Assembly: GCA_036489885.1 (NCBI GenBank)
Contig: DASXEW010000003.1
Location: forward strand, 1,302,001 to 1,366,000
DNA: 64,000 nt
Source: Candidatus Baltobacteraceae bacterium
GTDB taxonomy: Bacteria; Vulcanimicrobiota; Vulcanimicrobiia; Vulcanimicrobiales; Vulcanimicrobiaceae
Reading direction: 5' to 3'
Part shown: in pieces, positions 1 to 3,415 of the stretch
Layout: each line of letters starts with the position of its first letter
Position numbering within the stretch: position 1 is the stretch's first letter
The notes under the pieces: generated by a model
The model's input: the letters and a program-made list of their open reading frames with translations, nothing else
Databases searched by the model: none
Told to the model about the DNA's origin: nothing
Program-made: the position numbers and the translations under genes

Positions 1-397
1 TCAATACTCTACTGATTTCAGCACAGATACGAGCCGTCTCGACGTGCTCCCAGAACCTGAGAACAGTCCAACCACATGCTTCATAACGGCTGTTCGTGTC
101 TCGATCGCGGTCGACATTGGTGGAAAGCTTCGCGTCCCACCATTCCCGATTATGTTTGGGTTTCGAGCCGTGTTCGGGGCAGACGTGCCAGAAACAGCCG
201 TCGATGAATATTGCCAATCGCGCTCGCGGAAACGCAATGTCAGCATAACGGCAGTCCACCCCAGGAAAATGGATACGGAACCGAAGCCCCATGGCGTGGA
301 GCCCTTTGCGAACGTCCAGTTCGAGCTTCGTGTCCTTCGCCCGCTGACGCGACATTCTTTCGGCGAGGGCACGATCGCGTGGTCGCGGTGTTTTCAT
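1..397 (-). CDS. vsr: Vsr-family very short patch repair endonuclease (3' end cut by window)
   Basis: Translation from ATG at 397-395 gives 132 codons that run off the window edge without a stop. The protein has the Vsr signature: an N-terminal RMSRQRAKDTKLEL stretch, then FPGVDCRYADIAFP, the catalytic-region Asp in IFIDGCFWHVCPEHG, then a WWDAKLS..NVDRDRD segment and the late GWTVLRFWEH motif. Vsr enzymes nick 5' of the T in T:G mismatches that arise when 5-methylcytosine deaminates, so they usually accompany a cytosine methyltransferase. Here the start codon overlaps the methyltransferase stop (ATGA at 397-394), indicating translational coupling. Only a few C-terminal residues are probably missing. 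The reading frame differs from the longer open frames covering the same bases, which lack any family similarity. Confidence 0.9.
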   Translation of the reverse strand, partial: MKTPRPRDRALAERMSRQRAKDTKLELDVRKGLHAMGLRFRIHFPGVDCRYADIAFPRARLAIFIDGCFWHVCPEHGSKPKHNREWWDAKLSTNVDRDRDTNSRYEACGWTVLRFWEHVETARICAEISRVL

Positions 398-1515
398 CGC
401 GACTTGGCGTGCCGCACGATCTGTCGGGCAAATCGTTCTGCAAGCAGAACGGGAACGGCGTTGCCGACTTGGCGGGCCGTTTGAATAAGTGTCCCGTCGA
501 AAACGAAACTATCGTCGAACGTCTGCAGCCGCGCTGCCTCTCGGACGCTTATAGCGCGGTCCTGCGTAGGGTGGCCAAACCTCCCGTTCGAGAGACTGAT
601 GCAGCGGGTCGTGAGGCCGGGCGCTGGAGCGTGTTTTCTCATGCGTCCGTAGACATCGGTGTGTCCCCCGTAGTCGCGGTGGCACCTCAGTCTGAGTCTC
701 CCTGGCCAATCGCGTCGACCGCCCCCTTCAGGGGTCGCCCTTATTCTTTTCTGGTTGAGCGTCGATAGATTGGCGGCCCAATGATTCGGGACGGACCGGT
801 GATGCTCTCCGGCGTGGATCTTCGGTAGACCCCGAATCCATGTCCACACGGTACTGTACGCTCGTGCGCGATCGGGACCATGGGTTTTCCGCGGAAAAGC
901 GATCCGGCCGACGCGGCTTGCCATCACGACGAGGCGGTCCCTCTTCTGTGGCACGCCGTAATGTCGCGCTTGAACCGTTTGCATCTCGACCTCGTAGCCC
1001 AATCTCTCCAAGACTCCCACGAATTTTTCGAAGTCGTTTTTCTGACGAGCCATCTTCTGTATTCCTGGTACGTTCTCGACGAAGATGTAGTGCGGTTTCC
1101 AGAATCTTACAAACCGCACGAACGAGAATAGAAGCGTAGCGCGGTCATCGAGCCTTCGCTTAACGCGTCGCTGCTTGGAAAATGGTTGACACGGCGCGCA
1201 CGCGCTGAAAATCAATCGATCTCCCGATTTAGGTCGAATCGCATCGGCGATAGCACTGGGCCGAAGGCGCCGTATATCCGCGCACATCACCGACGCTCGC
1301 GGAAAATTTCGCTCAAATGTCTTACACGCTACTTTGTCGTTGTCGATGCCAAGAACAACGTCGATTCCCGCGCGCTCGAAACCTGCGCTGGTGCCACCGC
1401 AGCCCGAAAAGAAATCCACCATCTTCAGGCGCTGGCGACGCCTCGCTGATCTCAGACGAATATCCTCCCCGAAGCTCAAGTGCTCCAGTCGGTACCGTCC
1501 GGAAGATGCGCGCAA
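394..1515 (-). CDS. DNA (cytosine-5-)-methyltransferase, Dcm/type II family
   Basis: 373-aa enzyme transferring a methyl group from S-adenosylmethionine to C5 of cytosine. All main m5C motifs are in order: motif I FSGCGG (residues 36-41), motif IV with the catalytic Cys in APCQPFS (C109), motif VI ENV (147-149), motif VIII QKRDR (190-194), a short target-recognition region, motif IX (RAISVREAARLQTF) and motif X GNAVP (351-355). It is therefore complete and probably active. The ATG at 1515 gives a 31-residue leader before the fold; M32 (KMVDFF) is an alternative start. It lies 103 nt downstream of the nuclease gene and overlaps vsr by four bases, so it reads as the modification gene of a restriction-modification operon. 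Confidence 0.93.
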   Translation of the reverse strand: MRASSGRYRLEHLSFGEDIRLRSARRRQRLKMVDFFSGCGGTSAGFERAGIDVVLGIDNDKVACKTFERNFPRASVMCADIRRLRPSAIADAIRPKSGDRLIFSACAPCQPFSKQRRVKRRLDDRATLLFSFVRFVRFWKPHYIFVENVPGIQKMARQKNDFEKFVGVLERLGYEVEMQTVQARHYGVPQKRDRLVVMASRVGRIAFPRKTHGPDRARAYSTVWTWIRGLPKIHAGEHHRSVPNHWAANLSTLNQKRIRATPEGGGRRDWPGRLRLRCHRDYGGHTDVYGRMRKHAPAPGLTTRCISLSNGRFGHPTQDRAISVREAARLQTFDDSFVFDGTLIQTARQVGNAVPVLLAERFARQIVRHAKSR

Positions 1516-1618: not shown

Positions 1619-3415
1619 TTACTGCACGATTACAATCGCGCCATCGACTCCGTCCAACCGTCGCGCCACATTCACGAGCGGATCGCAAAGATGCGCGAAT
1701 GCCGCCTCGACCTCAGCTCGCGTGGCAGCTGTTGCCGATCCGGCGACCTGAAGGCGCGCGTCCGCCAAGAACATCGCCGCTTCGACGGTCAGCCGCGGCG
1801 CATCACCGACAGCGCTTGCGGAAGCGTATTGCGCGTGCCATCCTTCGCTCGCGATGATGTCGGCAAGTGTGCGGATGCGGCGTGTCGCGCCATGTTCGAG
1901 CTCCCACGTCAGCTCCTCGAGATGATCGTCGACGATCCCCGGCTCGAATAGCGCGCGCATCGTCCACAAATCGAGAGCACGTTTGGCGGCGGTTTCGAGA
2001 TTGTCGATGCTCCAGATCGAGACGCCGTGTGTCTTGGCTTCTTGCTCGCCACGCGTCGTTCCGGCAAGCTCCGGATAGATCAGCATGCAGTAGTCCGCTT
2101 TGTATTCGGTCTTGTGCTCGCTGGCTTCCCAAACGTCGGGCGTCTGCGACGGCTTCCTCGCACTCTTGCACTCGACGAGCACGCGATAGTGCGCAGGTCC
2201 GAGCGGAGCATCGAGTTGACCATCGGGCATTCCCGAACCGCCGAGATGCGTCGCGACGAATCCCATCCAACCAAAGACGTCGACCACGGCCTTTTCGAAT
2301 GCTTCGGAAGGGCCGTCCTGAAATTTGCGCAGGTTCTCGAGCACTGGTTCGAGCGGCGGACGCGGCGCCGGCTGGAGCACCGGCCAATCGTCTGCGGGAT
2401 GATTGGCGCGCCACCGGTGGTCGAGATCTTGAACCACGCGCGGCCGGCGCCCATCCGCAAGCATGTGTCGCAGGTAAGTCCGCAGTTGAATGTCCATGTT
2501 GTTTTTGTTGATGCCGGCCGGAAGCAGATCACGCTTCACAGCCTCATAGTAGATATCGCCTGCCGACCGCGGACGTCCGTCGGAAAGAACCTCGAACGCG
2601 GCGATCAGCCAGCGTCCACGCGTTACGTATCCGCGCAGCTCGAAAAATTCCGGTGCTGGCTTCGACTTCGGGAGGCGCTGTTGGCCAATCGCCGAGAGCG
2701 CCTCCGCGAAGCGATCGCCCACACCGGCGAGTCGTTGCTCGAAGTTGTCGGGACGAAACTGGCCGTTGGCGCATGTCTCGAGCTCGTCCCACGCGATCGG
2801 CGTCACGACGAGAAGATCGTCGGAGATGAGCAGGCTGTAAGGGAGATTGCATCCTTGATTGGTCGCATTCGAGCTCACCCAAACATGAATGCGTCCCTTG
2901 CTTTCGCTCACCGGCCGCGTCGAGAAGAGCTTTGACTGCGCTTCCATCGCGCGCGCGACGACCGCATGCAACCAACCGCGGACGTTCGCATACGGCGGGC
3001 CGCCCGCGAGTGGAATCCAGAGCGTGATGCCGGTCCCGTTCAACACCGGTATCGACTGCACGCGGTCGCGCAGCAGCGCATCACGCATCGTGCGTGCAGC
3101 CTCACGAACCATCGTTTCGGTTGCATCGCGGATCGGCCGCATAAGAACGTGCGCGAGTCGCGCGCGCAGCGGATCGCCCTCGATCGGCGTCCAGCTCTCG
3201 AACGCCACCGCGTACCGGTGCAAACACCATCGGGCCTTCTTGATATCGAACGGTTCGATGGTATGCCCGCGGACGATGTCGCCGCCCAGACCGTTCGGGC
3301 AATAGATCGGCTTGAACGGGACGCGTCCGATCGCTGCGGCAATGAGCGGGGCCGTCGCCGTATAGTACGCGAGCACCATCGCTTGTGTCGGCGGATCGAG
3401 CTTCTCGAGATCCAT
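1619..3415 (-). CDS. Putative restriction endonuclease: degenerate LigD-type PolDom + winged helix + FokI-like nuclease
   Basis: 598 aa. Residues about 10-212 follow the order of the LigD primase/polymerase domain: AYYTATAPLI, PIYCPNGLGGD, the strand-turn NGTGITLWIPL (126-136), then SKGRIHVWVSSN (172-183) and VVTPIAWDEL (203-212). The polymerase carboxylates are missing: no DLDP motif, the SGGKGLH-type turn has lost its His, and the later Asp is replaced. Residues about 265-340 look like a winged helix (GDIYYEAVKRDLL). Residues about 368-470 resemble the FokI cleavage domain: FGWMGFVATHLGGSGMPDG, then VECK, giving D398 and E415-x-K417. The C-terminal 120 residues are unassigned. First gene of the cassette, so it is presumably the restriction subunit. 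The fold reading is by eye, the function an inference. About 140 nt separate it from the divergent gene at 3555. Confidence 0.7.
   Translation of the reverse strand: MDLEKLDPPTQAMVLAYYTATAPLIAAAIGRVPFKPIYCPNGLGGDIVRGHTIEPFDIKKARWCLHRYAVAFESWTPIEGDPLRARLAHVLMRPIRDATETMVREAARTMRDALLRDRVQSIPVLNGTGITLWIPLAGGPPYANVRGWLHAVVARAMEAQSKLFSTRPVSESKGRIHVWVSSNATNQGCNLPYSLLISDDLLVVTPIAWDELETCANGQFRPDNFEQRLAGVGDRFAEALSAIGQQRLPKSKPAPEFFELRGYVTRGRWLIAAFEVLSDGRPRSAGDIYYEAVKRDLLPAGINKNNMDIQLRTYLRHMLADGRRPRVVQDLDHRWRANHPADDWPVLQPAPRPPLEPVLENLRKFQDGPSEAFEKAVVDVFGWMGFVATHLGGSGMPDGQLDAPLGPAHYRVLVECKSARKPSQTPDVWEASEHKTEYKADYCMLIYPELAGTTRGEQEAKTHGVSIWSIDNLETAAKRALDLWTMRALFEPGIVDDHLEELTWELEHGATRRIRTLADIIASEGWHAQYASASAVGDAPRLTVEAAMFLADARLQVAGSATAATRAEVEAAFAHLCDPLVNVARRLDGVDGAIVIVQ

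Follow-up and report, generated by a model that had tools for sequence, protein, structure and literature searches.

A family of nucleases found only in the phylum Eremiobacterota combines a LigD-type polymerase domain (PolDom), which has lost its catalytic residues, with a FokI-like nuclease, and on balance we lean towards its members being stand-alone, type IV-like defence nucleases for which the dead PolDom acts as a sensing or regulatory module. As far as we have found, no case has been described before in which a DNA-repair polymerase domain that is catalytically dead forms the non-catalytic module of a FokI-like nuclease. The member from which the analysis is developed is encoded in a 64,000-nucleotide stretch of DNA (the window), and a preliminary description of that stretch had presented it as the restriction enzyme of a restriction-modification (R-M) system. 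Of 149 genomes examined from the phylum, 36 or more have family members, with at most eight matches per genome in a count that includes canonical PolDoms.

Domain architecture of the fused protein

The open reading frame (ORF) has the position and the 598-residue length first reported for it (Table 1), and its architecture of LigD-type PolDom, winged helix and FokI-like nuclease, which had been proposed from the letters alone, was borne out by Pfam, by profile comparison and by the fold matches of AlphaFold2 models. The Pfam matches were to LigD_Prim-Pol (PF21686, E 4e-16) at residues 94-235 and to Mrr_cat (PF04471, E 2e-5) at residues 371-473, and a profile of 13 homologues (A1) matched the Mt LigD PolDom 2iru with E 1.2e-27 and FokI with E 0.025. 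The AlphaFold2 model of the whole protein had a pLDDT of 83. A separate model of residues 250-598, built from 37 sequences (pLDDT 90, pTM 0.80), predicted a winged helix, a nuclease of the FokI/HindIII type and long helices accompanied by another winged-helix fold. ORFs were called mechanically, and the genomes of the family are draft metagenome-assembled genomes (MAGs).

Table 1. Features of the family gene and its neighbours in the window
Feature	Position	Strand	Evidence
Fused protein, 598 aa: dead PolDom, winged helix, FokI-like nuclease, C-terminal helix/winged helix	1619..3415	-	ORF, Pfam, AlphaFold2 model, fold searches, homologues
LigD PolDom-like domain, residues 1-254	2654..3415	-	Profile, fold match, residue alignment
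Winged helix 1, residues ~262-345	2381..2632	-	Models; within the part matched to FokI 298/302 onwards
FokI/Mrr-like PD-(D/E)XK nuclease, residues ~358-480	1976..2344	-	Mrr_cat, FokI/HindIII fold matches, invariant residues
Predicted catalytic D398, HLGGSGMPDG motif	2222..2224	-	Alignment
E415-C-K417, (D/E)xK motif	2165..2173	-	Alignment
C-terminal long helices and winged-helix fold, residues 481-598 and stop codon	1619..1975	-	Model, fold match
m5C DNA methyltransferase, 103 bp downstream of the family gene, same strand	394..1515	-	PF00145, E 6e-64
Vsr mismatch endonuclease, 4-bp overlap with the methyltransferase, runs past the window start	1..397	-	PF03852; 190 aa at L021:9825-10397

Residues 262-499 could be placed on FokI 302-579 with a Z score of 15.4, the rmsd of 12 reflecting two domains that are placed differently, and in this way structure prediction upheld the winged-helix and FokI-like regions originally assigned. 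The nuclease region also matched the HindIII fold (Z 14.2), and the C-terminal winged-helix fold is cullin WHB-like (Z 9.7, rmsd 2.3, 82 residues aligned). A DpnI-type winged-helix match is absent from the VIA list, an absence that excludes nothing. D398, E415 and K417 are where they had been said to be and, together with E374, are invariant in the 13 homologues; in the set of 37 sequences E374, D398 and E415 are invariant and K417 is nearly so. The nuclease motif is therefore shown here, at the level of alignment, to be intact in the family.

The PolDom keeps its fold and has lost polymerase catalysis

In the AlphaFold2 model residues 1-254 matched LigD PolDoms with Z scores of 26-28 (VIA), for example 2fao_A (Z 27.7, rmsd 2.8, 252 residues aligned). 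The LigD likeness claimed for the N-terminal 210 residues is thus real when checked on the predicted structure (Z ~27), although its extent is ~254 residues. In Mt LigD the metal ligands are D137, D139 and D227, the nucleotide is held by S172, H178 and R244, the downstream 5'-phosphate is held by K16, K26 and N13, and F64 is a stacking residue (PMC8656161). Alignment to Mt LigD confirmed that the DLDP pair, the His of SGGKG(L/M)H and the later Asp are missing from the window copy: the metal ligands D137, D139 and D227 correspond to L91, R93 and W179, the nucleotide contacts S172, H178 and R244 to N126, T131 and L196, and K26 of the 5'-phosphate pocket to Q11.

These losses are not peculiar to the window copy. 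Across 44 family PolDoms position D137 is never Asp (44/44, mostly Leu or Ile), position D139 is Glu in 26 and Asp in none, and position D227 has kept Asp in 7 and lost it in 37. The S172 position is Asp in 29 of the 44, the H178 position is Ala in 35 and the K26 position is unconserved, while Arg stands at position 135, beside the old active site, in 41, and the F64 position is aromatic in 42 (Arg49 in the window copy). By comparison, the canonical PolDoms sampled in the window's organism and in relatives of it all have K26, D137, D139, D227 and R244 (22/22), and in the PolDom tree the dead family forms one side of a 100/100 branch that separates it from them. The expectation that this domain would not be catalytic is thus extended to the family, with D137 lost in every relative and kept in every canonical PolDom, and a working polymerase or primase in some members is rejected, the split and solo PolDoms being included in the 44. 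The window copy, which also lacks equivalents of the family's R135 and R244, is the most divergent member, and in the PolDom and nuclease trees alike its branch is the longest of the family.

It had also been suggested that a PolDom binding DNA ends or duplex was recruited as a module. Non-catalytic recruitment is the natural reading of these data, but the DNA-end part is weakened: LigD-like end binding is unlikely because Lys26 of the 5'-phosphate pocket is unconserved, the Lys16/Asn13 stretch of that pocket lying N-terminal of the aligned region and outside the alignment. Judging from the aligned residues, the specific 5'-phosphate grip of LigD has probably been lost in the family, and a general nucleic-acid or base-contacting role is possible.

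Methyltransferases and the setting of the window copy

Profile searches are taken here as the evidence on methyltransferases because a motif scan proved insensitive and missed the window's own enzyme, and genome-wide searches were added because the tallies of neighbours covered listed families only. The genome-wide survey consisted of two profiles, PF00145 (m5C methyltransferases) and PF01555. There was no PF00145 match in 22 of the 32 family-bearing genomes, a frequency similar to that of the non-bearing genomes (none in 22/28, present in 6/28); PF01555 was missing from 17 of the 32 and both profiles were missing from 13. On these counts we reject the view that the family as a whole consists of R-M enzymes for which an m5C methyltransferase is an obligatory partner. 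The family has no METHYLTRANSFERASE partner and is independent of m5C methyltransferases, and the R-M role put forward in the preliminary description is not supported as a general one: few loci have a methyltransferase nearby, and the homologues largely lack the link to methyltransferases on which that role depended.

A neighbourhood search for the architecture beside m5C methyltransferases succeeded for the window copy, the only one that adjoins such an enzyme directly, and few other loci have any nearby. Among the matches listed for 140 near-neighbour proteins (PADLOC and Pfam) there are two m5C methyltransferases, the window's and that of L026. Within ~5 kb of a family gene a methyltransferase (PF00145 or PF01555) occurs at four loci only, i.e. 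the window, L026, L120 (m5C methyltransferase and Vsr) and L117 (a type III mod protein beside a ResIII protein). The combination of m5C methyltransferase and Vsr lies near family genes at window positions 1-1515, L026:8916-10431 and L120:4224-6240, with three different methyltransferases. In the bearing genomes 3 of the 12 m5C hits (at three loci) are near a family gene, against 0.08 expected by random placement; we read this excess as clustering of defence genes, which can explain it but does not prove that it is so.

It is unlikely that the window copy is the cognate restriction endonuclease of a type II or IIS R-M system formed with the adjacent m5C methyltransferase and Vsr, in which the PolDom and/or the winged helices would read a specific sequence. 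The two genes do lie 103 bp apart on one strand in an immediate cluster with no other restriction endonuclease, its long branch in both domain trees would suit a copy that had taken on a new role, L026 and L120 likewise have an m5C methyltransferase with Vsr within ~3 kb, and the excess of m5C hits points the same way. However, m5C methyltransferases are absent from most of the bearing genomes, the L026 enzyme has its own NgoMIV-type restriction endonuclease, with Vsr and a Z1 protein nearby, and the L026 and L120 methyltransferases are only 34-35% identical to the window's. The nearest relatives of the window methyltransferase are ~38-42% identical to it, and its closest plasmid relatives have Vsr, Z1, DrmD/MmeI or ATP-binding proteins as neighbours, so an enzyme of this type needs no FokI-like partner. 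The family gene has also moved without a methyltransferase between L032 and L036 (see below). The case is a caution against naming a nuclease an R-M enzyme on the strength of one methyltransferase neighbour.

Directly beyond Vsr, to the left of the window (L021:3-9982, i.e. genome C3:1292003-1301982), are a HEF_HK/HATPase protein, a Response_reg_2 protein, HsdR and HsdS, and the window gene sits in a defence island. With its methyltransferase neighbour and its lost PolDom residues the window copy is an exception in the family and may behave differently. Motif IV of its methyltransferase neighbour reads APCQPFS, the usual form in m5C methyltransferases being PPCQxFS. At L026:81-10431 the family gene is frameshifted and is surrounded by the Z1 protein, the NgoMIV-type restriction endonuclease, Vsr and the m5C methyltransferase.

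Fused and split forms of the family

The named carrier records are Candidatus Eremiobacterota, WPS-2 and UBP12 MAGs. A scan of the genome contigs with a single protein as query gave no match; scanning them with an alignment gave 30 loci in Eremiobacterota/WPS-2/UBP12 MAGs or MAGs labelled only as bacterial. At least 22 loci have all four domains in one ORF, and at 10 loci the protein is split, a PolDom gene adjoining a gene for the winged helix, nuclease and C-terminal region in PolDom-first, nuclease-first, divergent or convergent layout. PolDom-only and nuclease-only genes are also present. In the nuclease tree the starred branches require four or more switches between the fused and split forms, and this recurrence of fission and fusion strongly indicates that the PolDom and nuclease halves work as partners.

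The separability of the halves at the 10 split loci, in both orders, would also suit a toxin-antitoxin-like module in which the dead PolDom inhibits or switches the nuclease until it is released on infection (abortive infection), as would the PolDom-only genes that are kept in synteny and the additional PolDom copies that adjoin a fused or split gene at L022 and L106. We consider this quite unlikely, since some nuclease halves have no PolDom in the examined flank (L125, L127, L128 and L129, although their genomes hold other PolDom halves) and antitoxin pairs do not usually have the nuclease gene first.

The PolDom-only genes with conserved synteny belong to one genus (L046:6997-7791, L110:4009-4833, L112:4912-5691, L113:2963-3763 and L114:2580-3329) and look vertically inherited; they are apparently a domesticated, nuclease-less version. 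At L109:6587-9713 a single PolDom-half gene is followed by two tandem nuclease-half genes.

Mobility and neighbours of the family genes

The copies at L032:9497-11392 and L036:8307-10203, which come from different genera, are 98.3% identical over 1,897 bp, i.e. the gene and ~70 bp, and their surroundings are unrelated with no adjoining sequence in common. No common flank was seen in 28 of 31 related locus pairs; the L032/L036 pair has only a separate 69-bp stretch, at L036 8212-8280 near an ISL3-type transposase, which recurs 5 kb from the L032 copy. As the L032/L036 identity is limited to the gene and related pairs are mostly free of common flanks, the family gene has been exchanged alone, and these comparisons show its transfer as a single gene without a methyltransferase.

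Related copies that are alike only across the gene and occupy unrelated sites, and the many copies per genome, could also be produced by a selfish element consisting of one gene, with a nuclease that drives the element's insertion in a homing-like manner. This is improbable: ordinary horizontally moved defence genes give the same pattern, no common insertion site or terminal repeats have been established, and insertion by homing nucleases is normally into a homologous site. A viral or plasmid origin was rejected, as viral contigs held no related locus, there was no phage match, and the plasmid matches were to canonical LigD and to nucleases of other architecture only.

Despite the PolDom ancestry and the presence of Ku in 26 of the 32 bearing genomes, it is highly improbable, and not supported, that the family is an NHEJ repair nuclease trimming ends with Ku and LigD, since the canonical PolDom beside Ku has a locus of its own (G000:C3 ~556 kb; in the window's own genome Ku is at C3:555540 and the family gene at 1303622, with no genetic link), a Ku match is absent from 6 of the 32 bearers (including the 98%-complete G027 and G020), Lys26 is unconserved, and the distribution is patchy, multicopy and transferable. 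The family is independent of Ku.

The defence-type neighbours include, as examples, type I R-M with HEF_HK, Cas3, a Cas9-like protein, Fic, type III mod, AbiE and NgoMIV/Z1, and the association with defence islands is judged from such examples and not against a random control. All-against-all comparison of the flanks gave no conserved neighbour family, and the window's flanking gene, sought for an empty-site comparison, was not found in the neighbour genomes.

Proposed role

We infer a defence role for the family in which the PolDom binds the trigger, the trigger being a feature of foreign DNA and not an unmethylated site. The dead PolDom, as a fused domain or a partner subunit, would be the module that senses or regulates, probably through contact with nucleic acid, and would control a winged-helix/FokI-like PD-(D/E)XK cutter. 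The cutter would need activation before cleavage, as FokI does (e.g. dimerisation on DNA), and the trigger may be a modified base or an unusual structure of foreign DNA.

Winged-helix (wH)-fusion nucleases without methyltransferase neighbours have been read as type IV because they are stand-alone, and hence as probably modification-dependent (PMC11037411). The present family likewise stands alone, with no cognate methyltransferase, and by the same argument would be a stand-alone type IV-like or structure-sensing nuclease. The corresponding winged helix of FokI is reported not to contact DNA (PMC11037411). By analogy, the candidate sensors in the family would be the PolDom and the C-terminal winged helix.

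A more specific and only tentative possibility is that an immune sensor has arisen here by exaptation of an NHEJ polymerase. The old nucleotide/template pocket, without metal ligands but with the base-stacking aromatic kept and with new conserved residues near the former active site (Arg at 135, Asp at 172), would then read a base or a DNA structure and license the FokI-like nuclease alone, with no methyltransferase. If the PolDom is the sensor, this would be a new, methylation-free means of distinguishing foreign DNA from the cell's own, and the domain might also provide FokI-type nucleases with a new recognition module.

Relation to known systems

Archaeal PriX, a non-catalytic subunit with the AEP fold that is part of primase, is a precedent for a polymerase fold that has lost catalysis and serves as an accessory module, although it is a subunit of a primase and not part of a nuclease. 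The family domain resembles the LigD PolDom (PF21686; Mt 2IRU/2IRY, Pa 2FAO) in its entire N-terminal fold, its order of segments, the PYSLRG...P...W.EL motifs and the template-stacking aromatic. It differs in the loss of Asp137 (44/44), Asp227 (37/44) and K26 and the replacement of S172 and H178, in being fused to or paired with a nuclease and not a ligase, and in lying outside the Ku locus. With the type IIS enzyme FokI the family has in common a winged helix (D3 in FokI) followed by a PD-(D/E)XK cleavage domain with the HLGGSxxPDG...(D/E)xK signature; unlike FokI, it has a dead PolDom in place of the D1-D2 recognition helices, an extra C-terminal winged helix and no conserved methyltransferase partner.

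We found no described protein with this architecture in the literature searched, coverage of which was partial, in agreement with the preliminary description. The parts are known singly, and what is new is their combination, the mobility of the single gene and the split/fused behaviour.

The wH-fusion and Mrr-type solitary type IV endonucleases (PMC11037411; Priestia and Staphylococcus plasmid 'restriction endonucleases') likewise join winged helices to a nuclease of PD-(D/E)XK or Mrr-like type and have no methyltransferase, but they have no PolDom and nothing that matches the model of the family's C-terminal domain. The nearest nuclease domains outside Eremiobacterota are those of solitary plasmid 'restriction endonucleases' with no annotated methyltransferase alongside. 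The alignment scan also reached one Holophagales protein, for which the common part is the nuclease domain only; this protein (L081:6219-8837, 872 aa) has an N-terminal HATPase_c_3 domain and carries the same nuclease domain at residues 604-702.
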